Shown: one piece after another, positions 1 to 64,000 of the stretch
How the letters are laid out: the number at the start of each line of letters is the position of its first letter
How positions within the stretch are numbered: the first letter of the stretch is position 1
Assembly (NCBI RefSeq): GCF_024713945.1
Contig: NC_134682.1
Coordinates: forward strand, 4,131,001-4,195,000
Direction: 5' to 3'
Origin: Dermatophagoides farinae
Taxonomy: Eukaryota > Arthropoda > Arachnida > Sarcoptiformes > Pyroglyphidae
Length of the DNA stretch: 64,000 nucleotides
The notes under the pieces: generated by a model
What the model saw: the letters and a program-made list of their open reading frames with translations, nothing else
Databases searched by the model: none
What the model was told of the DNA's origin: nothing
Program-made: the position numbers and the translations under genes

Positions 1-1
1 T

Positions 2-853
2 GGATTTGCAGCTGGTAGTGCTGGACCAATCACCGGTGGTAGTGTACCAAGTTATGGTAATGGTGGTGTTACTCAATCCCCGAAACAATCTATGTATCAG
101 CAACAACAAATGGCTGATGATTTTACTGTTGAAATGGGTCCAATGACAACAACATCTCCAATGTATTATTCTGGTAATGGTCAACGATCAAAACCATCAG
201 CTATTCAAAACTATGGATATAGCAATGGCAAAAATGGTAACGGAAATGGCCAACGACCAAAACTAACCTCAAGATATGAACCATCATATGGTAGTGGTGG
301 TAGCTCACCAATGTCTGTGACACCTAGTCCAATCGGTCAAGAAACCTATGAAACAACGCCTTACAATTTGGATGCTGCATTAGGCGAAGAAATTCATTCG
401 GAAACACCATTAATCGAATCATTACCATTGACAACTATATTACCACATGTGGAAAAAGTCGTAGATATGGCCATTGCTAGCCGAAAAACAGCTTCAACTA
501 AATCAGCATATTATGGTTCAAATAATGGTTTCGGAGGTAAAAAGTAAGTAGTCGACTATTTCGAATGACAATTTAACATCCAATTTAATTTGATTTGATT
601 TTTTTCATCTAGATTAAATGGTGGTTCGAGACCATCATATGGTAGTATAAAAGGTGGTAGCAATAATGGTAAATCGAATAATGGCGGCGGTAGTGTACCA
701 TCAACATATGGAATGGCAAATGGAAGTTCATCACCATCGACATCATCATCACCATCACCACCATTATCACCAGCATCAACGGTAGCAGCACGAAAGAATG
801 GTGGATTTAAACCACAACAACAATATCAACCATCATATGGAACAAAAATTTAA
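2..853 (+). CDS. Gly/Ser/Tyr/Asn-rich protein, 3' part (5' end outside window)
   Basis: The reading frame is open from base 2. I read exons <2..543 and 613..853, joined by a 69-nt GT..AG intron (gtaagt donor) whose splice restores a Lys codon; stop is at 851-853. The product is about 260 residues as visible. It is rich in Gly, Ser, Asn, Tyr and Pro, with repeated short Ser-Tyr-Gly and Pro-Ser-Tyr-Gly units. One denser segment near residues 115-160 (contains PLTTILPHVEKVVDMAIASR) may be the only folded part. The composition resembles secreted cuticle-type or structural proteins of arthropods, but no signal peptide can be seen because the start is missing. Function is unknown. It could be a distant member of the secreted family at 25-34 kb, but the shared motif of that family is not present in the visible part. 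Confidence 0.6.
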
Positions 854-1031
854 AATCAAAAAAAAAATGAAATATTTTATTTGATTTGATTAAATGGTAA
901 TGGGTGGATGGATTACAATGTTTTTGTTGTGTTTTTTTTTCAATTATCAAATTTTCTCATTATTTTTTCTGTTTTGTTTTCTTTAAATCGTATTCACTTT
1001 TATATTTCGCCCACCCCACAATGTATGTATT

Positions 1032-1043
1032 GGGGGGGGGGGG
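1032..1043. repeat. G run of 12 nt
   Basis: The only long G homopolymer in this AT-rich window, downstream of the first gene. Length may be polymorphic or an assembly artefact. Confidence 0.9.
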
Positions 1044-1769
1044 TAGCCACCATCAATTATTGAATATCATGTGTATAAATTATGATTGATGAATGAATAA
1101 TGAACTTGTTATTGACATTCAATGTTTTTTGTTTTGTTTTGTTTCGTTTCATTCATTTTTTTACTCTTCAATCCCAGTTTTTTCTATTTCTCTCAATTTT
1201 TTTTTTTCATTCAAATAATAACATTGATAATGAACGTAAGCTTATCTTTTATTTTATTTTATTTTTTTTTGATCCACAAGTTTCATCGATTTGGTATATA
1301 TTCATCAAGTGGGTTGATGGGTGTGTGCGTTTGAATGTAATGAAATTGGCTTTATTGACATTATTTTTTTTATATAATGATGAAAAAATGATGCTGAATA
1401 ATAAATTTGAAATTGATATCGATCGATCGATCAATCAATCAATCAATATATTGATCAAGATTTGGTTCGTTGAATGAATTTTTTTTTATTGCTGTTGCTG
1501 CTGCTGCTGCTGCACCTTCATGTTGTTCTTCTAATCATCATGTTGATATAGCCGCAATTTTTTCATCATATTCGATGCATAAAAAGGATTAATGTGGATG
1601 GATAAAAAACCAAGAAATCGAGAAAATTGGAGAACTTTTTTTCATTTTTTTTTCATATATGCAAATTGATTGGCATCAAACCTCAAATCAAATCATTAAC
1701 ACCTTGTAAAAGTGATGAGTGATGATGGTTTAGTGTTTTGTTTTCATTTTTGTGTTGTTTTTTCTTTTC

Positions 1770-1792
1770 AAAAAAAAAAAAAAAAAAAAAAA
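1770..1792. repeat. A run of 23 nt in the 854-2264 gap
   Basis: Uninterrupted A tract in the AT-rich 1.4 kb between the first gene and the end of tyrosine hydroxylase. No gene is supported in that gap; (ATCG)n and (ATCA)n tracts near 1418-1446 and (CTG)n near 1491-1514 are also visible. Confidence 0.9.
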
Positions 1793-2264
1793 TTTTCGCC
1801 CACATGTCTTTCATTTTTATCGTAATTCACACTCGCACACACAATATTTCCAGAAAATATTATTTCCGGTTGTCATTTTCATGGTAATCATTTTGATTAT
1901 CACGATAATATAGGCTGCATCTGAATAGTCATTCATTTTATAAACAAGACTAAAATTGAACTCGTGAAACCTTGAGTGAACTGAACATTTATTTTTATGA
2001 TCATCATTTAAATGAAAATTAAAAACCAGTAAGTTGTTAATTCAATGATGTAGATGATATTAATCATCTATAGTCACTATCTAATGTCTAATAACATTCG
2101 ATTATTATATATCATTCTTCTAATGGCTACATATCGAATTTCAATATTTTTTTTTTCTTTGTTCAAACAAAACAAACAATAAATATATAGATGCTCTTTC
2201 AACAAGATGAAAATTCAATTCAATTCAATTTGAGTATTTTGATTATAATCATGTGATTATAATT

Positions 2265-5013
2265 TCAATTGAAAATTTTACGCAATTTCGATGAACAACT
2301 ATGCAAACGTTCAATTTGATTGGAAATTTTTCCAACCAATCGATCCATTTTTTCAACCGAATCAATAACATGTACCCGATCTGTATATGGATCATATGAT
2401 ACTTCAAAACGACGTGGTAATTTATCGGCTACATATTTTCGAAATTTTTCTTTTGCATCATCAAAACTTTCGGCTACAAAATAGATTTCCTGATAGTCCA
2501 GATCCTGATATGATTGTATGGCCGTTTTTTCTGGATCAAATTCTCGTAATTCCGGTTTATTTGACAATGAATGTTTTAGTTCACCAAATGATGATAATAA
2601 TCCGGCTCCGTATGCACGTATCTGGCCATTCTCACGACAAAGACCAAATTCAACGGTAAACCAGTATAGCTAAATTGAAAAAATTAAAATTAAAAACAAT
2701 TTCAAATTTAAACTATTTATATATGAAAAAAATACAGTGGCCAATTTTTCCAGATCTTCATCGCTTGCACCAAGTGAAGCTAATCCTATTTCTTGTGAAA
2801 AATCGGCAAAACTTTCATCAGCCAATATTGGTATATGGCCCAACAATTCATGAACACAATCTGGTTCAGGTGAATGATCAGGTTCACTTGGATGGCGCAT
2901 ATATTGTGTTGTTTGAAATACACGATAAGCAAGACTGGCAAGAAAATCACGTGCAGTCAATAGGCCAGCCGCTGGTCTTATTGTAAATCCAGTTCGTTCT
3001 ATATTGATAATCAAAAATTATATCAAACAACAACAACGACAATGATCGAATATATTAATCAAGAAAGACATACTTTTAAGAAAACGTGAAACATCTTCCA
3101 ATTGTGGTATATTATCCGGTGCATAGCCACATTCTTGTTCCAATAGTTTAAACACTTCAATGTGTTTACTACATGCATGTGTAGGAAATAATCGTAGCAA
3201 TTCTTTGTATACAATTCCCCAGGTCTTAATTTCTTCTTCTGTATATTTAACTCTAGGTATTGGATTACCACTTGAAATGGAGAAAAAAGAAATTTCATTA
3301 GAAAAAATCATCACAAACCGACATTTGAATTTCAATTTACTATCGATAATCAAATGCAATGTTTGCAATCTCTAAACGACGTGCACGATAAATTGCATCG
3401 GAAAATCCTGGATGATCACTATCTAATTCTGGTTCATATTTGGTCATAATATGTGTACAGAAATCCAGATCGCTTATATGACGTGGAAACCATGGATCTT
3501 TTACTGATATAAGTTTTTCACGCAACAATGATACTTCACCAAGTCCAGCTTGACGTGCTGATTTCATAAATGTCAACAGATTGGCCGGTGTAATCATGAC
3601 CGACATGAATATATCGAAACATTTTCGATCTTTTTCATTCTGTCGACTTTCCAAATGTTCAATTGTGGCCTGTGTTGCCTGCATCAATCGTAATATTCTT
3701 GGCAAATTATCCAGACCATTATTGGCCGGCAATGCAATCATTAGATTTTTTCTTTTCAACATATCATCCGTTTTCTGTTGGCCATCTTTTTGTCGTGTTT
3801 CTTCCGCTACAATAACCTCCTCTTCGGAAAGATCAAAATCTTGTGATGCACTACGACTTTCTTCGATCCATGAACGTACGGCTTCACGATTTTTTTGTGT
3901 CTCAAATTTAGCATCATCAACTAATGATCTTCGACGTGATGGATAGCCATGCTATTTTTGTTTGAATGGATAACAAAGAACAAAAGAAAAGGTCAGCGAA
4001 ACAACGACAAAAAAAATCATATAATCATTTACATTCAATCAATCCATTGATTAATTAATTAATTGGCAATTATAACTGTCACCAACAGAGAAAAAATGAA
4101 CAACGGAAGTAATTTATTGTTGTTTGTTTTGTTCAAAAAAAAAATTGAATCAAATGATGTGTGTGTGTGTGTGCTGTCCAATTATCATCATTGTGTAATT
4201 ATAATCAGAAAATCAGATTCAGAACTTTCGAATAATTACAGCAACTCACACACACACACACACACACACACCCATATCCACTTTTTATATCCATTCATTC
4301 TTTTTTTTTTTTTTTTTTTTTTTTGTTGAAATGTGTATAACAATCAACACACACACAATGTGGATGACAATGAAAAAAAAAGATTTTCATTCAGATTATG
4401 TGTGTTCGTCGTCGTCGTCGTCGTTAGTTAGTTAGCCATATTTTTTCCGATGATTGATATATTCATTACAATGAAAAGATTCATGAATAGAATTTTGTGT
4501 GGATGAAAAAAAAAAAATTGAATAGAATGGAAAAAAATGATAATGGCGGATTTCCGTTGCCACCATTTTGGATGCCAACAGTAAGTCATTTTTCCATTAT
4601 ATGTTGTTTAATAACTTTTGACTTTTTTTTTTCTCTCTCTCTCTCTTTAGTTGGACAATAAAGTGATGGAATTTGTGTGTCAAAATTAATCCTATTATTA
4701 TTATTCATTATCATTTTGATATTCACTATAATCACATGTGATTGAGATTGATTCAAATCAATTTAAATATATTGTCAATATTGATAATCATGGATGAATG
4801 AATGAATGAAAAAATTTTTATTGAAAATTATTTCTCAATCAATTTTTCTCTTCGGCTTTGGCAATGATCGGATGGGTATTATTATTCATAATAATCATCA
4901 TCAATAATCATAATAAATAGAGAGAATAGAAAGAAAGTGAGACTTACCTCAACACTATAGCTACGTATGGCAAATTTTTTCTCCAATCGATTTGCCGATG
5001 CTAATGATGCCAT
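2265..5013 (-). CDS. TH: Tyrosine 3-monooxygenase (tyrosine hydroxylase)
   Basis: Pterin- and iron-dependent enzyme that converts tyrosine to L-DOPA, the first step to dopamine and to cuticle-tanning catechols; cytosolic. Exons (minus strand): 4948..5013, 3341..3951, 3074..3270, 2736..2998, 2265..2669, all with GT..AG introns and matching phase, giving 513 residues. The N-terminus [10 protein letters not shown].. runs into [17 protein letters not shown], nearly the same as the insect enzyme, and includes the RRxS protein-kinase A site. An ACT-like regulatory segment follows ([10 protein letters not shown], residues about 85-150). The catalytic domain has [11 protein letters not shown], the iron ligands HELLGH (near residue 340), the Glu in [10 protein letters not shown], and a C-terminal leucine-rich tetramer helix. 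[11 protein letters not shown] and [17 protein letters not shown] favour TH over phenylalanine hydroxylase. The first intron is long (996 nt) and carries microsatellites. Confidence 0.95.
4158..4271. repeat. (TG)n at 4158-4173 and (CA)n at 4247-4271, inverted pair in TH intron 1
   Basis: A 16-nt TG run and a 25-nt CA run lie 73 nt apart inside the first intron of the tyrosine hydroxylase gene. Being complementary in orientation, they could fold back on each other in the pre-mRNA. A 24-nt T run (4301-4324) and a (TCG)n tract near 4408-4424 follow in the same intron. Confidence 0.9.
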
Positions 5014-27081: not shown

Positions 27082-28911
27082 CGGTGTGTGTTTGGTTTAT
27101 CTATATATAATAATACAGATGATTATGATGATGATTCGAATGTTGTACGTGGCTTGTTATACAACGAAGGTACATCGATCATTTATTTACCACAATTTGA
27201 ATTTTGAATTTTGATTTTTTTTTTTTTGGAACAAAATCATTGATGTTTGTAGTAACTATGGAACTATCATTGATATATAAAAATAGAACAAATATATAAT
27301 ACTCGTATATGTGTAAAAATTATGAAAAAAAAAATTTTAAAATAAAAAAAAACTAAAATTAAAAGCAAAAAAAAAAAATTCAAAACTCGAGCGCATCATC
27401 GTAATGATCCATTTGACCAAGGCCAATCATTACACAAATCTGCACAAATCAAATCACCATCATCATTATCATGACATATCTGAACTGAGAAATTTGGTTC
27501 ACTTTCACCAATCAATTTTATCAATTTTTATCAATTTTTTTTTCTCTTTTTTCTCACATCTCGTGACCAATAACAAAAAAAAAACGGTGACGAGAAAAAA
27601 TTTCATTTTCATTCATTCATTCATTCATTTAAAATTCACATTCAAATTGATGATTATTTAACCGTTATCAGACAAAAAAAAATGTATGCCCAATCGCGGT
27701 TCACGCAAACACGCAAAAAAATACTGCTCTATTTATACACCAGATAGACACACACACACGCGAAATCGGCATCGATCTTCATCATCATCATCAGATATTA
27801 TATGAGAAAATACACAGCACCTGATTTGTATAAACCAGAAAATTTTACCTTTTTTTCATTATAATCAATTAATCTCCTGTTGTTATTTCAATTTATCACC
27901 TGTTTTTTTCTAGTGTGTGTGTGTGTGTGTATAGAACATTTTGAAAATCTTCAGATGTGATCAGGTGATGATGATGATGATGATGATCCCCTTTTTTTCG
28001 ATGTTTCAAAGAGAGGACATTGCCATTTTAATTCATTCGATCAATGACATTTGAAAATTTTTTTTGATTTTTTTTTCTTATTTTTCATTTTAAAGATTTA
28101 TATCGTCGATAATAAAAAATGGGTAAGAAAAATAAATTTATTTGGATGGATACTAAATCGGGTATATAATCATCCATATCTAGGTCGGTGGTGTGGGAAA
28201 AAAAAAGAAATTAATACTGAACATCATCATGATGGGTGTGTATGTTGTGAACAACAACAACGACAACACAACAATATTGACTGACCTTTTCGAGGTGATT
28301 TTTTTTCTGTTTGTAAAAATTGAATTTTGTCACCCATTTTCTTGTTTTTTTTTTCGCCTGTATACATCACCTACCAACGAAAATCGAGATCGAGAGTGAT
28401 TGAGAAAAAAAAAAGAACCAAAATCATCACATATTCAATGAACAGGACACTCTTTTGATGATGAACAACATTAATATGATGATGATGACATCTCACTTTT
28501 ATTTTATGGTGTTTTTTTTACATTATCATTACAAATCAAATGTGTTCAATAATATATGAACAGAATATCGGTCGGTTATTTTATATTATGAACTAAATAA
28601 TTAAAAACTTACCACTTGTGTGTGTGTGTCTCTTTTAGTTATCTTTGGATTTTCTGGAAAAAATAATCACTCTCACTGGTTTTCATTAGAATGATGATGA
28701 TGATGATTCGATAGTGAGAGTTATTTTCGGACAAAAAATACCGTTTGAATTATATATTTTTTTTTCTTTTCTTGTCCAATTCGAAATGTATAAATATTGC
28801 CCGATTCGAATATGATCTGTTCATTCTGTTTCTAATCATCGTGATAGTTTAAATAAACCAAATAACAATAACCAATTATCATCATCATCATTCAATTATA
28901 ATTGATATATA
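27082..28911. other. Intergenic gap between secreted family members B and C
   Basis: No gene supported. It has (TG)n at about 27913-27931, (GAT)n near 27967-27987, and (TG)n at about 28618-28629, with several T runs. A TATA-like element for the next gene is listed separately. Confidence 0.6.
28789..28796 (+). promoter_or_regulatory. TATA-box candidate for secreted protein gene at 28912
   Basis: TATAAATA lies 116 nt upstream of the start codon. This is a good match in sequence and a plausible distance. Not confirmed by any transcript evidence. Confidence 0.45.
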
Positions 28912-30102
28912 ATGATGATGTTCCATGTAAGTGGTGTTTTTTTTTTTGTTGTTGTGTCGAATGAAATTGTGATTGTGTATCAACGTTTTTTTTTTGTTTT
29001 GTTTTTGTTTTGTTATTAGTTTATATTAACCATCATTATGATGATGATGATGGTAACAATATCAAAATCGGCTCCATATTCTGGTGTTAAATCCGGTAAT
29101 ATTATTCGTGGTGGTCAATCACAGATTATGGCTGCACCTATTATGATTCGTACAACTAATTCAAATTCTGGTTATGGTTCATTATATGGTCGTTTAGCAT
29201 CATCATCCAATGGTGGTGGTGGTGGTGGTGGTGGTGGTATTATTCCAATAGCCATTCAAACCAAACATAATATCGAATATAAAGATGTTCCATCAAGTGG
29301 TTCAATTCAAACGGCTACTGTTGAAGGTAAACATACATTTCTTGTTAATATTCGATAATTAATTTTCTTTTTCTGTATTGATTTTATAGTCGGTGCTCGA
29401 TCCATACCTATAAATATTATTTTCCGTTCAGCATCATCATCATTGAATGTATTACAACGTCATCAAGGTGCCGGTGGTGATACACAAGAATCACATTCAG
29501 AAGATGAACCACATGTATTACGTCATACGGTGAAAAAACCGATTTATCAAATAGTCAATGAAATCATAACACCATATAGAAAAATTTCACAAGAAGTACA
29601 TCCAGTACAAGAGGAAATTAAAACCGTTGTAGCAAAAAATAGTAACCATCATCAACCTGTTGGTCAAAATCGACCAACAACAACAACAATCAATAATCAT
29701 TATGCTGCTGCAGCATCTACAAATAGAAATCATCATCATGTACAACCATCATCATCATCATCATCATCATCAATTATTCTTGGTTCACATTCCATGGAAG
29801 ATGATGATGATATTGATAATAATAATAATAATGATAATAATGATTATCAAAAATTATTACAAAGTGGCAGTGCTATTGTAACGACATCTTCCGTATTGAA
29901 AGGTACTGATGTTGATGGAAAATCTATTGCAAAATCGATGGATCAAAATTTAACAAAATCTGTTGCTGCTTTATTGAAAACACCAACATCACAGATAGCT
30001 AAAACTAAACCATCAACATCCATATCGGTCTCATCATCATCATCATCATCATCATCATCGTCTTCATCATCGTCATCAGGTGCAAAATCATATCAGGTTT
30101 AA
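28912..30102 (+). CDS. Secreted Ser/Asn/Gly-rich protein, RS-motif family member C
   Basis: Exons 28912..28926, 29020..29326 and 29390..30102 give 344 residues. The tiny first exon (MMMFH, gtaagt donor) joins FILTIIMMMMMVTISKS to make a signal peptide, and the second intron is 63 nt. The conserved core spans both later exons: TKHNIEYKDVPSSG, then IPINIIFRSASSSLNVLQRH, an acidic HSEDEPHVLRHTVKKPIYQ, and ITPYRKISQEVHPVQEEIKT. This core aligns closely with the minus-strand gene at 32854. It is followed by poly-Asn, poly-Ser and His-rich linkers. I recall similar K-P-I-x-Q-E / P-Y-R / P-V-x-E proteins from other arthropods, but give no name. Likely secreted structural protein. Confidence 0.78.
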
Positions 30103-31629
30103 AAAAAGCGACAACAACAACAACAACAACAAAAAATTCGAGTCAACAAAAAAAAAATCAATTTTTTTCAAATTTTAAAATTAATATAATAATGTAATGT
30201 AATAACTAATTATAAATCTTTTATTATTATTAATCTAAATATATATAAATAAAAAATAAATGGAAAAAAATCAATTAAAAATGTGGTGCAATCACACACA
30301 CGCACACACACAGACACAGAATCACAACAGCAACAAATGTGTCTATGCTTGCGTGTGATTGAATCAATCAATCATTCATTGATGATGATGATGATGATGA
30401 TGTCATTGCTAAATAACAAATTTGTAACTAACAACAACATCAACAATGAAAACATTTTGATGATAATCAACAATTTTCTGTTTAAATTTAAATTTCAAGC
30501 ATGTGAAAAAAAAAGAAAAAAAAATGAAACATGAAACATGAAACTTTGTAATTAAGACGCGTACACGTATTGGATATTTACATACACACACACGAATGAC
30601 AAATGACAACAAGTGAATGATGATGATGGAAATCTATCTATCTGTATATAATGTATGGATCTATATATTCAACAGGTTGTTTTTTTTCTCTCTGTGTGTG
30701 TGTGTGTGATGTAAATTTTTGTTTTTTTTTTAAATAAAAATAAAAAAAAACATAACAACTTTATCACTTGTTGTATATAAATTTGGATTGGTTTTTTCTC
30801 TCTGTGTATGTTTGTTACGATTTGGATGATGATGATAATGATAATGATGATGCGAAGAAAGCAACATATTCGAATTTGAGAAAAGAAAAACATTCGAATT
30901 TTTTTTTCTCCATTTTTCCATCCAAGCTAGACGTAGAAGTCGTTTCAAACGTTAAATTTTTTTATTTTTTGTTTGATTATTGATAATTAATCGCTTTTGC
31001 TTAAACACATGTGTGTTGTACATACACACATACCGAGGTTTGTTTTAATAATATCATTGCAGCAAGAACTTTTTTTTCCAGCTAAAAACTGGACATTTTT
31101 TTTTTAATTAGTAAATCTGCTACTGCTACTGCTACTGCTGCCGAAATAATCACTAAGAATTATGATGATCATCCATAATGATTATTAGATATAGAGAGAT
31201 AAATGATTTTTATTTTTCGGAAACAGTTTCATGAATGATCATGGATCGATTTATAGATTCGATTGATTATTATCTTGATTAATCAATCAAACGACAAATT
31301 AAAAAAAAAATTGCATGAAATGTGTAAATGTGTGTGTGTGTGTGCACATGTTTCTGGAACCCATCATCATCATCATGAACATAATTTTCGATTTGCAATT
31401 CGTTCCAAGATTATCATTTTTTCAACAACAACAACAAAAAAACGATTGAAAAAATGATTTATTACCATGGATTTTTTTTTCCATCCATTCCACTCCCAAT
31501 TATATATTATTTGTTGAAGATTGGATCCAATTTGATCATGATCATGATGATGATGATGATGATGATCACATGAAAAACATGATTATATTCCAATGGCGTC
31601 AGATCACATTATATGCGTGTTTTGGGTGC

Positions 31630-54778: not shown

Positions 54779-55482
54779 TTAATTTTTTTCCAATTCACGT
54801 TTAAATGCTGGTGCCAATACTTTGGTCATTTCCTTACGTACGGTGTCTTGGAAAATAGCGGTCAATACATCAGATAAAACGCCAAAAATTGGATCCAAGA
54901 TTGAAAGACCACCAATATGGTTGACAACATTAGCGAATTGTCGTACTTCAAAAGATGTCATTGTTATGTTACCTTCATCAGAAATTTCAAGGGACAAGGC
55001 AACAACAAAATCTTGAATATCCGAAATGACATGAGTGGTTGGATGAAGATCACCCAATTTGTATGCTAAATCATATTCCATCGAGACGATATCATCGTGA
55101 ACACCGATCAACAAATGAGCTTTAACAATACCCTCTTCACCTTTGACATTAGCATCACCTTGACGTTTCATTTGTTTCAATCCTCGAGCCTCAATGTTTC
55201 GCATGGCTAATTCACCTTTGAAATCCAAAATACCAACATGACGTTCGAATTTATCGGCATGATCAGGTACTTTCATTGGATCTATTGTTTCGGATTGTTC
55301 AATAGCAGCAATGGCATCATCAATAGCTTTGTTGATTTCTTCGGTGATTTTATCATAGTGAACTATATAAGCAAAAATATTTGAATTTAGTAATTGATTT
55401 TTTCATTTAATCTGCGAAACTTACTTGGATCAGCCGAAACGGCGACAAATGCCACGGCAGCAATCAACAAAAATTTCATCAT
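54779..55482 (-). CDS. Der f 7: Mite group 7 allergen (Der f 7)
   Basis: Secreted lipid-binding-type protein of the dust-mite gut, a known human allergen. Its fold resembles the bactericidal/permeability-increasing protein superfamily, from published structural work on Der p 7. Exons 55425..55482 and 54779..55362 (62-nt intron) give 213 residues, the length I recall for Der f 7. The signal peptide MMKFLLIAAVAFVAVSA is followed by mature DPIHYDKITEEINKAIDD. The body includes GDANVKGEEGIVKAHLLIGV and ends FKRELEKN, matching D. farinae rather than D. pteronyssinus. One difference from the sequence I remember is Leu in HVGILDFKGEL, where I recall Val. N-glycosylation site at NITMT. This gene fixes the genus and most likely the species of the window. 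Confidence 0.97.
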
Positions 55483-59285: not shown

Positions 59286-62200
59286 TTATTCATCTTCAAC
59301 GCGTGTTTTTCTTGGTTTTGGTACAGCCTGCTATTTGGAAATATAATAGAATAAATGAATTAATAAATGGATTATGAAATTTCAAATCAAAAAAAAAAAC
59401 TTACTCCAGGACTAACACCACGTGTAGCTGATGCAGAGCTCCTGTTTCGTGCACGAAGTTTAGCCAATGCATTTTCGGACATATCGGCACGTTCTTCAGC
59501 ATCTTCCAATTCTTGTTGTACTTTACGATATTTAGCCAAATTAAGGGCAGCAATCTCTTCAGCTTCTTCAATTTGTCGTTTGTATGTTTTGATCTTTTGT
59601 TGTAATTTATCGATCAAATCTTGCATACGTTCATAGTTTTTACGATCTTCATCGGCTTGGAATTGCAATTCCTTGATACGACGTTCAGCTTTACGCAAGT
59701 TCTTCGATGCATCACCATGTCGTCGTTGTTCGCTTTCATATTCTTGTTCCAATTCGCGAAGTTTTTGTTCCAATTTTTGGATAGTCTTTTTGCCACCTTT
59801 CAATGCAGCTTGTTCGGCTTCTTCCAATCGTACTTGCAAATCTTTGATTTGTTGTTCCATTGCTTTTCGCATTTTTTCTTGTTGTTGAGCATGTTCTTGT
59901 TCGGCACGAAGTTCATCAGCCAATCGAGCAGCATCGACCATAGCTTTTTTGGCTTTCTCTTCGGATTGTTTGGCTTCGTTGAGCATTTCATCCAAATCGG
60001 CTTGTAAGGCTTGCATTTCACCTTCCAATTTACGTTTGGCCATCGATAATGATGCATTGTTGGCAGACAAATCATTGGCTTGATCATGTAATTCGGCCAA
60101 TTCACCTTCGGCTTGTCGTCGGCCACGATCAGCTTGTTCCAACAATTGTCGACTTTCTTCCAATTCTCCTTGCAATGCATTGCATCGTCTTTCAGCCATG
60201 GCATATTGTTCACGGGCTTCGTCCCGAGCACGTTGTTCGTCTTCGTATGCTGTTTGCAATTCTTTGATATTCTGTTGGTATTTTTTGATATTCTTCTGGG
60301 CTTCGGCATTGGCTTTGTTGGCATGATCCAATGCAATTTCCAATTCGTTGATATCTGATTCGAGTTTCTTTTTCATACGTAAAGCTTCGGCTTTCTGTCG
60401 TGATTCGGCTTCCAAGCTGGCTTGCATCGAATCCAAGGCACGTTGATGATTCTTTCGAGTATTTTCGAATTCTTCCTCTTTCTCTTGCAATCGTCGGTCG
60501 ATTTCTTGTCGAACCTGGGACAATTCCAATTGAGCACGCAATACTTTGTTCTCTTCTTGTTCCAATGCAGCTTCGGCTTCCTCTAGAGCTGCTTGCAATT
60601 CTTCTTTCTCCATTTCCAATCGTTTTCGTGATTTTTCCAATTCGTGTACCGATCGGCCACCTTCTCCCAATTGATCGAGCAAATCTTTGATCTCATCTTG
60701 GAGATTTTTGTTTTCTCGTTTAACAGCTTCGTATTGTTCTTGGCTTTCTTCGTATGCGGCACGAAGTTTGAACAATTCTGTTGAATAGTTTCGGCATTCT
60801 TTCTGCGAAGCATCCAATTCGGCAGCCAAATCGTCGGTTTTTTGTTTCCATTCGGCAATAACTTTGTCGAATGTTTTCTGTTTCTTTTCGAGTGTTGCAG
60901 CCAATGCATTGGCACGTTCCACTTCGATCGACATGTCTTCGATTTCGCCTTGCAAACGTTGTTTGGTCTTTTCCAATGAGCCCACTTTGGAATTAAGTTG
61001 TTCAATATGTTCATCGGCCTCTTGTAATTTGACGCCCAATTTCTTTTTAGCCTCTTCCAATTCTTCCAACCGTGCAAGACCTTCAGATTCGAATTTGGCT
61101 CGCCATTGTTGAATTTCGGCATTAGCTTTGCTAAGTTGTCGTTGCAAATCGGCTTTGGCTTCAGTTTCTTCTTCAAGAGATTCACGGACATTGTCGAGGT
61201 CGTGTTCCAAATTACGGAGTTTCGACATGACGGAAGCACGTTCCTAATGAGAAAAAATTTAAAGAATTTTCAATTAGTACAAGATTCAAACGAAATATTA
61301 ATATCCATACTCGGCTCTCTTCATCGGCCGTTCGTTTAGCTTCCTCCAATTGACTTTGCAATGAGCTCTTGAGTTTGGTCAACTGGTTGACCTGTGATTC
61401 AGCATCCTCCAATTGACGTTGCAATTCGCCATTCTCAGCGGCCAATTTCTTTTTGGAGGCATCGAAATCGCTCAAATTACGATTAGCTTCATCTAATTTG
61501 CCTGTAACTTCACCCAATTGCATTTCCAATTGTTTGTTTTGTTTTTCAATATTGGCCTAAAAGTTATAAATGAACAAAAAAACAAATTAGTATCAACAAT
61601 ACAATAGTTAATCATTCAAGAAGAGTCGTCTATCCGTCTATCCGTCTGGTCCAATATCGATTCCATTTGTTGTTATTACTGTTGTTTGTTTGTTACCTGA
61701 TTCTTGGTGGCATGATCAACAATTCCTTGTAAATCAACCAGTTCAGCTTGTAATGTGCCTCGATCTTTTTCAAGTCTTTGTCAATTGAAATTAAGTGAAA
61801 TTTAAATTTACGAAAATTGGCAACTCATAAAAAACAAAATTAAAGCATTGAAAAGCTAGCCTAGTACAAATAATAAACACATTATGATGAAAATCGATAT
61901 TCGGATAGTCAACCTGATGTATAAGGGGGTGTATGATGGGTCCATAATTATTGACTATCTAGATAACATTACCTTATCTTTGGCAAGATGATCGACGCTT
62001 CCTTTCAAATCATCGAATTCAGCTTTCACTTGTTGTTTTTCTTTTTCAACACTATTTTGTTTAAACAGGGATTTTTTTTAAAAAAAGGGGATCACAATTA
62101 TAATAACAATAATTATTGATTAAAGATAAAATTATTAATCTAAACAAATCTAATGAAAGGGTATCATCCTAAATAAGGGATCTAAAATGAAATTGAAATT

Positions 62201-64000
62201 GGCAAGCATATAGTTTAGCTATGGGAGGCAAATTCAATTGATACATACCGTTGTTTGGCTTTGGTCAATTGGTCCACTTGTTCACTCAATTCGGCAACAG
62301 AATCATTATGTTTTTTACGCAATGCTGACATGGCTTGTTCATGATTAAGGTTGGCCTCTTCAAGATCACGACGAAGTTTAGCCATTTCTGCTTCACGACG
62401 TTTATTCAATTCGATTTGTGATGAAGTGGCACCGCCAGCTTCCTCTAATCGTTCACTTAATTCTTCAATTTCACGTGCTAAATCGGCACGTTGTTTTTCA
62501 GCTTTAGCACGAGCTTGTCGTTCAGATTCCAATTCTTCTTCCAATTCTTCAATTCGTGATTGAAGTTCTTTGATTTGTTTCTGAAGTTTGGCAACCAATG
62601 CCTGTTCATCCTCAAGTTTTGAGGCCAAACTTTGCAACTCTTTTTCTTTACGTTGCAAATTGGTTTCCAATTCTTTTTTATTCTTTTCTAAATCAGCAAC
62701 AGCTTCCTGTGCCAATTTCAAATCGCCTTCAACTTTACGTTTGTTCTTTTCGATATCAGCACGTGCTTTCTTTTCACGTTCCAAGCTATCTTCCAATTCG
62801 TCCAAGGTTTGTTCCAATTTGGCTTTCACCTTGTTCAAATGGTTGACCTTATCTTCAGTGGCTTGCAAATCTTCGGCAGTTTTTTGGCCCATCTCTTGCA
62901 AGTTTTTCTTTTCTTTATTCAATTTATTGATCAATTCATCTTGATGGGCGATCTCATCGTTAAGGTTTCGGATCTGATGATCTTTGGATTGTTTGTCTTG
63001 TTCAGCTTTTTGTAAGGCAAGTTCCAAATCTTCAATTTCTTTCTTTTGATTTTGGATTTCATTTTCCAATTTCTTTTTCGATGAGCTAAGGCTAGCATGG
63101 GCATCCTCTTCATGTGATAATCGATCTTGCAAGTCCTATTACAAAACAACAAATAAATTAGATCATACACATATTAATTGATTAACGTACCGATAATTGG
63201 CTTTCTAAATCATTTTTCTGTGAAACGGCTTTCATCAAACGTTCCTCAACATCACCGGATGATGATCGTTCGGCTTCCAATTGCAAGTACAAATCGTTTT
63301 TCTCTTGCAACAATTTGACATTCTGTACTTCCAAATCTTTTCTTAATTTTTCTTCTTTTTCGCGTGCTTCGGTTTCTTTTTTAAGTTTCTCTTCCAAAGC
63401 TTTAAGTTCATCTTCAACACGAGCAACGTTGAGCAATGGCTTGACTTTCGAATACAATTTCCACCACAACCAATTTCGAAGGGTAAGGAATTTTCGCAAG
63501 TTTCGTTGGATGACCAACAAAGCGACACGTTGATCTTGAAGCTTTTTGAAATTCTTTTTAACGAAATACCAACGGATCCAGGCTTGTAACCATGTCATAA
63601 TCTTGCTCAATCGATCATCACGCATCTCTTCAAGACGACCGAGAACACCGGCACGGAAGAAAATCTAAATAATTTTTTTTCATATTTCATAATTGAATTG
63701 AATTGAAATTAATTTAAATTCAAAATTAATTTTTGGAGGACAGAAAAAAATGTTAGGAATTGAGAAAAGGAAAGGAAATGGGAGGGAAATAGTCGTTTAC
63801 GTAGTAGTAGTCGTCGTCGTCGTCATCGTAGTTGTGTCCATTATTTTCAAAAGATCGATGATTCCAAAGTTCCAAAATTCAATAATACCATAAGCAAAAC
63901 ACTCAAAAATAATACTTACTTTAGTGCTGCCAAGACAATATTCTTGTTCATCAACATGGATTGCTTTAACAAGCTTTTCAGTGATTTGTCTTGCATCAAC
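59286..64000 (-). CDS. Mhc: Muscle myosin heavy chain, C-terminal part (5' end outside window)
   Basis: Motor protein of thick filaments. Exons (minus) from the right edge: beyond 64000..63920, 63664..63191, 63135..62249, then one of 62051..61973 or 61775..61697, then 61556..61311, 61243..59405 and 59330..59286 (or 59327..59286). The edge exon ends the motor ([13 protein letters not shown]), followed by the converter/lever [20 protein letters not shown] and an IQ motif ([20 protein letters not shown]). The lever end is [14 protein letters not shown]. The rest is heptad coiled coil matching insect Mhc throughout, e.g. [17 protein letters not shown]-type and [20 protein letters not shown]. The tail reads [13 protein letters not shown] then [13 protein letters not shown]. 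It is a true muscle Mhc, not paramyosin, because the lever and the motor end are present. All introns in view are short. Confidence 0.95.
61697..61775 (-). other. Mhc alternative hinge exon, proximal copy (26 codons)
   Basis: 79 nt read [20 protein letters not shown] then HATKNQ. An acceptor ttgacaaag precedes it and gtaac follows. The phase (one nucleotide completing an Arg codon) is the same as that of the copy at 61973-62051, so each can join the same two flanking exons. Confidence 0.85.
61973..62051 (-). other. Mhc alternative hinge exon, distal copy (26 codons)
   Basis: 79 nt read [20 protein letters not shown] then HLAKDK, with an acceptor aaaatag and the donor gtaatg. It lies 197 nt from the proximal copy, with identical length and phase. 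Joining both would still keep frame but would put two hinge segments in tandem, so mutual exclusion is expected. Confidence 0.85.

Follow-up and report, generated by a model that had tools for sequence, protein, structure and literature searches.

A tandem pair of 26-residue hinge exons in the muscle myosin heavy chain gene of Dermatophagoides farinae, a probable mite copy of exon cluster-11

Two short exons of equal length lie in tandem in the muscle myosin heavy chain gene (Mhc) of the dust mite Dermatophagoides farinae. The locus raises the question of whether they are alternatives of which only one is spliced in, and how they relate to the hinge exons of insects. The hinge of Drosophila myosin occurs in two copies and is 26 residues long. 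The window, i.e., the whole stretch of 64,000 nucleotides that was analysed, is C6:4131001-4195000 of the 62.4-Mb assembly. In its last 5 kb, the minus strand carries the 3' part of a striated-muscle Mhc gene (Table 1). With a probability of about 0.92, the pair was assigned as the mite copy of the known arthropod, i.e., protostome, Mhc cluster-11, swapping 26 residues of the rod near the S2/LMM junction.

Table 1. Features of the Mhc gene in the window
Feature	Position in the window	Strand	Remarks
Third of three homologous converter exons, part (cluster-10 by position)	63920..64000	minus	
Lever-arm / S2-start exon	63191..63664	minus	
Constitutive rod exon upstream of the hinge pair	62249..63135	minus	last 2 bases start an Arg codon
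Intron ahead of the 5' hinge exon	62052..62248	minus	197 nt
5' hinge exon, first copy of cluster-11	61973..62051	minus	79 nt, 26 residues, 11b-like
Intron separating the two hinge exons	61776..61972	minus	197 nt
3' hinge exon, second copy of cluster-11	61697..61775	minus	79 nt, 26 residues
Intron behind the 3' hinge exon	61557..61696	minus	140 nt
Constitutive rod exon downstream of the hinge pair	61311..61556	minus	phase 0 start
Large light-meromyosin exon	59405..61243	minus	
Terminal coding exon	59286..59327	minus	13 residues, then stop

On the minus strand of the window, both hinge exons are bounded by AG and GT, have equal phase and share their flanking exons. They are identical in 11 of 26 residues, i.e., 12 of 27 when the Arg of the common split codon is counted, and in 51 of 79 bases. 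The original prediction had described two same-phase tandem exons of 79 nt between common flanks, and its coordinates, phase, length and flanking residues were all correct. The 26 residues of each exon and the identical heptad register, which it also claimed, were both confirmed. Different charge was a further claim, and here the difference proved to be only mild, i.e., net charges of -1 and -2 with 13 and 8 charged residues. For the length, frame and splice-site criteria by which mutually exclusive exons are described in PMC3912159, the pair gave 79 and 79 nt, the same phase and AG/GT sites.

When either hinge exon is used alone, the frame stays open through the end of the downstream exon. 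When both are joined, 13 stops appear in the downstream stretch. When neither is included, 3 stops appear, and a stop is reached within approximately 25 codons. Because the upstream exon leaves two codon bases and the downstream exon starts in phase 0, one 79-nt exon fits between them, whereas two or none do not. Given these splice sites, inclusion of exactly one hinge exon is predicted to be the only productive outcome. Judged by this frame test, mutual exclusion of the two exons in transcripts is likely.

All segments of 79 nt bounded by AG and GT were collected from both strands of the window. Of the 143 segments, 54 were open in the hinge phase, and these were compared with five hinge sequences by BLOSUM62 sums. 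The best sums were 84 for the 5' exon and 56 for the 3' exon, while the third-best segment reached 2. The two exons were the only hinge-like segments among the 54, and no third hinge copy was found there.

The placement of the 26-residue exons in a muscle Mhc, at the S2-hinge site of insects, was also borne out. The mite rod aligns with the muscle myosins of tarantula, Drosophila and Lethocerus, and the alignment is free of gaps in the hinge region. The hinge starts 379 residues past the proline that ends the lever arm and 23 residues past a register shift in the upstream constitutive exon, the first of the four that were inferred. These four register shifts of the mite rod are presumably the skip residues of myosin. 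In the aligned chains, all of them gap-free here, the hinge site corresponds to residues 1218-1243 of tarantula (PDB 3jbh), 1216-1241 of Drosophila (8u95), 1225-1250 of Lethocerus (7kog) and 1217-1242 of human MYH7.

The eight core positions read VKVFLVLK in the 5' hinge and LRLLLVAQ in the 3' hinge, the larger changes from 5' to 3' being Phe to Leu, Leu to Ala and Lys to Gln. The idea of the hinge as a weak coiled coil was rejected. With a heptad profile built from the mite's own rod, the percentile among 1003 rod windows was 37 for the 5' hinge and 54 for the 3' hinge, and neither stands out. Since neither hinge is an unusually poor coil, a simple switch between a stable and an unstable hinge is not visible.

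The acariform mites include both the dust mite and Tetranychus. This position of Mhc was named cluster-11 of mutually exclusive exons by Kollmar and Hatje in 2014 (PMC3912159), who reported it in Tetranychus urticae, Ixodes scapularis, Mhc4 and Mhc5 of Metaseiulus and Mhc1 of Parasteatoda. In the text of that paper, the cluster is given as absent in a centipede and is not listed for scorpion, so that it does not occur in all arthropods. Its origin was set at the onset of Protostomia, and a common origin of the pair was judged far more likely, with types A (5') and B highly conserved across protostomes. The mite pair resembles the protostome cluster-11 in having two tandem hinge exons with a conserved frame and splice pattern, in an Mhc gene that has other clusters. 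The novelty implied by the original prediction was not supported, since the common ancestry of the pair in mites and insects has been in print since 2014 with another acariform mite sampled (PMC3912159). Because the published origin lies at the base of Protostomia, a common ancestor of mites and insects was not only already printed but understated. The word "Dermatophagoides" does not occur in the main text of PMC3912159. No paper on Mhc splicing in Dermatophagoides was among the literature matches listed, and a description elsewhere is possible. The dust mite pair would add another acariform to the published list of cluster-11.

Insect hinge exons are divided into two types by the residues at positions 14-15. 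According to Fee et al. (PMC5660136), 11a has Asn or Gln followed by Ser or Thr, and 11b has Asp followed by an aliphatic residue; the hinges of tarantula, Limulus, scallop and human cardiac myosins are described there as more 11b-like. The hinge alignments are printed in Fig. 4 of that paper, according to its legend. Both mite hinge exons have Asp-Leu at 14-15, i.e., the 11b state, and no 11a-type hinge copy was found in the window. The 3' hinge exon is thus 11b-like at these positions, yet it has Asp-Arg at positions 4-5, the same as the Lethocerus hinge. One copy of type A (5') and one of type B were looked for in the pair, and Asp with Leu was found in both copies. As the residues at 14-15 were defined on insects (PMC5660136), this result argues against a match to exons 15a and 15b, and not against cluster-11.

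The parallel to Drosophila exons 15a and 15b was right in part. These exons, i.e., hinge A and hinge B, have the same rod position, the same 26 residues and the same two copies (PMC13322953), and the parallel stood for the site in the rod. A one-to-one match is not shown, since 14-15 are in the 11b state in both mite copies and 26 columns are too few for the AU test to reject any of five histories. Hinge A (11a) is the fast flight-muscle form of Drosophila, with Asn or Gln and Ser or Thr, and neither mite copy has that residue pair (PMC5660136). In Lethocerus indicus, exon 29 of Mhc (MXE 11) has the same rod position as the mite pair. The flight muscle of Lethocerus expresses 29a, as seen in clones X1, X2 and X4 (PMC5660136). 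As PDB 7kog is named isoform Mhc_X1, its hinge was taken as 29a, and it is the single 11a sequence in our comparison. It has Asn-Thr at 14-15 and shares only 4 and 6 of its 26 residues with the mite exons, while the tarantula and Drosophila 8u95 hinges share 9 to 15. The tarantula striated muscle myosin (PDB 3jbh), which gave the one tarantula hinge sequence found, was the closest to both mite exons among five non-mite hinges, with 15 of 26 identities to the 5' exon and 10 of 26 to the 3' exon.

The Drosophila structure PDB 8u95, named "isoform U", has Asp-Leu at 14-15 in residues 1216-1241 of chain A, i.e., the 11b form, although the flight muscle of the fly reportedly uses 11a (PMC5660136). 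Related loci were also searched in other sequence collections. In viral contigs, 179 pattern matches were obtained and no relative was among them. In genome contigs, no relative was found with a single-protein search, and an alignment search led to one arthropod-like contaminant. This 4.1-kb contig is filed as Agilicoccus flavus, and its positions 1-3738 encode an arthropod-like Mhc from the converter to the stop in one open frame. The product is 97% identical to Drosophila over 294 rod residues and has an 11b-like hinge, and the sequence is an apparent contaminant.

A separate rod-only, i.e., "headless", muscle myosin gene was found at C6:293803-289706 on the minus strand. It has a unique N-terminal exon (MSDSEQSV...), after which the rod starts in mid S2. 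No motor domain was found near it, the PF00063 matches listed on C6 lying at 27556-30370 and 4196387-4202966. In a tree of seven sequences and 294 light-meromyosin columns, the gene grouped with mite Mhc with a support of 87, and two other placements that were tried were rejected (p-AU 0.024 and 0.036). The gene looks like a duplicate made after the split of mites and spiders. This dating is weak, given its long branch and a tree in which tarantula falls with the insects (support 62) and not with the mite. The mite gene recalls molluscan catchin/myorod and the myosin rod protein of Drosophila, both of them products of Mhc itself, as well as Mhc8 of Lottia, a separate tail-only gene (PMC3912159). 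No mite example of a rod-only or headless myosin was seen in the titles and abstract starts of the literature matches listed.

A single hinge exon of 79 nt (292996-292918) is present in the rod-only gene, and its phase is that of the Mhc hinges. Of the 36 AG-79-GT segments counted in 20 kb, 8 were open, and no other one was hinge-like. The residues of this exon are identical to the mite 3' exon in 10 of 26 and to the 5' exon in 6 of 26. Of six trees for this hinge, the AU test rejected the two that join it to the 5' exon (p 0.013) or to tarantula (p 0.040), although the KH and SH tests do not reject the latter. Column resampling leaves a 7% chance that the preference for the 3' type is noise. 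If the preference holds, the 3' hinge type would be older than the rod-only duplication.

Readings in which the pair is not a working alternative can be weighed against these data. Coiled-coil rods are internally repetitive, and both exons might be included together as a longer hinge, or their likeness might be due to chance. This is extremely improbable. Joint inclusion shifts the frame, barring a further splice site that would restore it, and the second codon behind the first hinge is then a stop. The mutual BLOSUM62 score of the two exons is 59, which was reached by none of 20,000 shuffles of one exon. Nor did any of the 916 remaining 26-residue windows of this rod reach it against either exon, their maxima being 40 and 39. 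The repetitiveness of the coiled coil does not account for the pair. It is also very unlikely, if less extremely so, that one exon alone is used and its partner is a degenerate duplicate, i.e., a dying relic. The 5' exon is nearer than the 3' exon to the tarantula hinge, as such a relic would suggest, but the 3' exon retains the exact length, the phase, the AG and GT sites and an open frame. It also keeps the register: of the six core positions with a hydrophobic residue in the 5' exon, five are hydrophobic here as well, and the remaining one has Ala. Because a related hinge is present in the rod-only gene of the same genome, the 3' sequence type seems to be maintained.

For a functional pair, the origin can be read in more than one way. 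The mite pair could derive from a duplication of an 11b-like exon that took place in arachnids, separately from the origin of insect 11a and 11b, and we consider this rather doubtful. The Asp and Leu of both copies at 14-15, the 11b state of PMC5660136, would agree with such a duplication, as would VDH at positions 19-21, which the mite copies have like the tarantula and Drosophila 8u95 hinges. Among the hinges compared, the 3' copy matches its own neighbour best (59), then tarantula (56), and scores 23 against the 11a-type Lethocerus hinge, but only one 11a sequence enters this comparison. In a likelihood test, five candidate trees of seven hinge sequences and 26 columns were compared by the AU test with 2000 resamplings, for which the program warns of too few. 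The best of the five trees (T3) joins both mite copies, but the AU test rejects none of them (p 0.169 to 0.774). RELL bootstrap alone excludes T1, in which the 3' copy is paired with 11a. Separate duplication is further opposed by the Asp-Arg of the 3' copy, like that of Lethocerus 11a, and by the published preference for a common origin with types conserved across protostomes (PMC3912159).

Within the assignment to cluster-11, a tentative proposal, to which we give somewhat less than even odds, is that dust mites have no 11a-type hinge and carry two diverged 11b-type exons. The hinge pair would then have arisen twice, in the insect lineage and again within arachnids, or the polar "fast" residues of 11a would be a later insect or pancrustacean invention on an older pair. 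If true, either history would run against the published claim of high conservation of types A (5') and B among protostomes. The 3' type would in that case be ancient enough for the mite's rod-only gene to have inherited it. If chelicerate pairs have no 11a residues, the fast and slow hinge switch of Drosophila could not be read back to the arthropod ancestor. The proposed link of 11a to the perpendicular heads of flight muscle would then be a pancrustacean specialty.

As a mechanism, it is proposed that trans-acting splicing factors of muscle would pick one hinge exon, no intron-intron pairing above chance having been found. Transcripts with both exons or with neither would be lost to early stops. 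The 26 residues chosen could tune the packing of the rod or the geometry of the sarcomere near the S2/LMM junction, as in the exchange of hinge A and hinge B in Drosophila. There, the swap from hinge A to hinge B gave a longer rod and sarcomere and altered kinetics (PMC13322953). In the Lethocerus filament, the hinge site is buried, is unlikely to bend, and touches the S2 of a neighbour and two extra proteins (PMC5660136). The switch may act on a contact surface and not on bending.

Several other features of the introns were tried and rejected. For intron pairing of the Dscam type, a known means of enforcing exclusion, three intron pairs were compared with shuffled sequences, and 139, 138 and 47 of 300 shuffles were as good or better, which in a single genome is a weak test. 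A common origin of the introns around the hinge exons was not indicated by local alignment, the scores of 30, 23 and 21 lying within the range of 300 shuffles (maximum 36, 31 and 32). Weak 3' splice sites do not mark the pair, since the pyrimidine fractions of 0.56 and 0.62 overlap those of five other Mhc acceptors (0.31 to 0.75).

The hinge pair is one of six tandem homologous exon sets in Mhc. The other five were found in the same gene, at 63920-64000 of the window and in C6:4194920-4203020. Three of them are equal-length pairs with GT donors, i.e., of 141 nt (39 of 47 residues identical), 104 nt (25 of 34) and 88 nt (26 of 29). The fourth is the converter trio, with 121 nt each; a GC donor would be required for its middle copy. 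The third converter exon is cut by the window edge and continues in the genome to the equivalent of window position 64040. The fifth is a pair at the P-loop with a homologous stretch of 61 nt (18 of 20 residues), and its exon ends are provisional because in both copies the GT that follows does not resemble a donor site. From their positions and motifs, the sets of 141, 104 and 88 nt, the converter trio and the P-loop pair were read as clusters 1, 5, 9, 10 and 2. If all copies were used and freely combined, 2x2x2x2x3x2 = 96 isoforms would result. This makes a first list of candidate exon clusters for dust-mite Mhc.

Tetranychus is reported with clusters 5, 7, 9, 10 and 11 (PMC3912159), whereas the dust mite was read as having 1, 2, 5, 9, 10 and 11. 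No second relay exon (cluster-7) was found by the tandem-exon scan of the relay region, a scan that required equal length and GT and would miss copies differing in these. Its noise was one meaningless 15-residue pair on the same strand and three pairs of 16 or 17 residues on the opposite strand.

Some minor observations were made on Mhc and its surroundings. The middle converter exon (C6:4195545-4195425, minus) ends in AAG-GCATGT where its neighbours have GT, and is identical to the first copy in 30 of 40 residues. This GC-AG site could reflect splicing control or a sequence error. The terminal Mhc exon has a tandem acceptor, AATAG-CAG-GCT, at window 59325-59335 on the minus strand, and splicing at the first AG would insert one Gln ahead of the last 13 residues. 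Near one contig end, C6:27556-33962 (plus) encodes a class-II myosin, with motor and then tail matches in frames of 342 and 883 aa, which is possibly a non-muscle myosin. At window 54779-55402 on the minus strand, approximately 4 kb downstream of the 3' end of Mhc, an allergen gene was found that is closest to Der f 7 (PDB 3uv1, 9hae).
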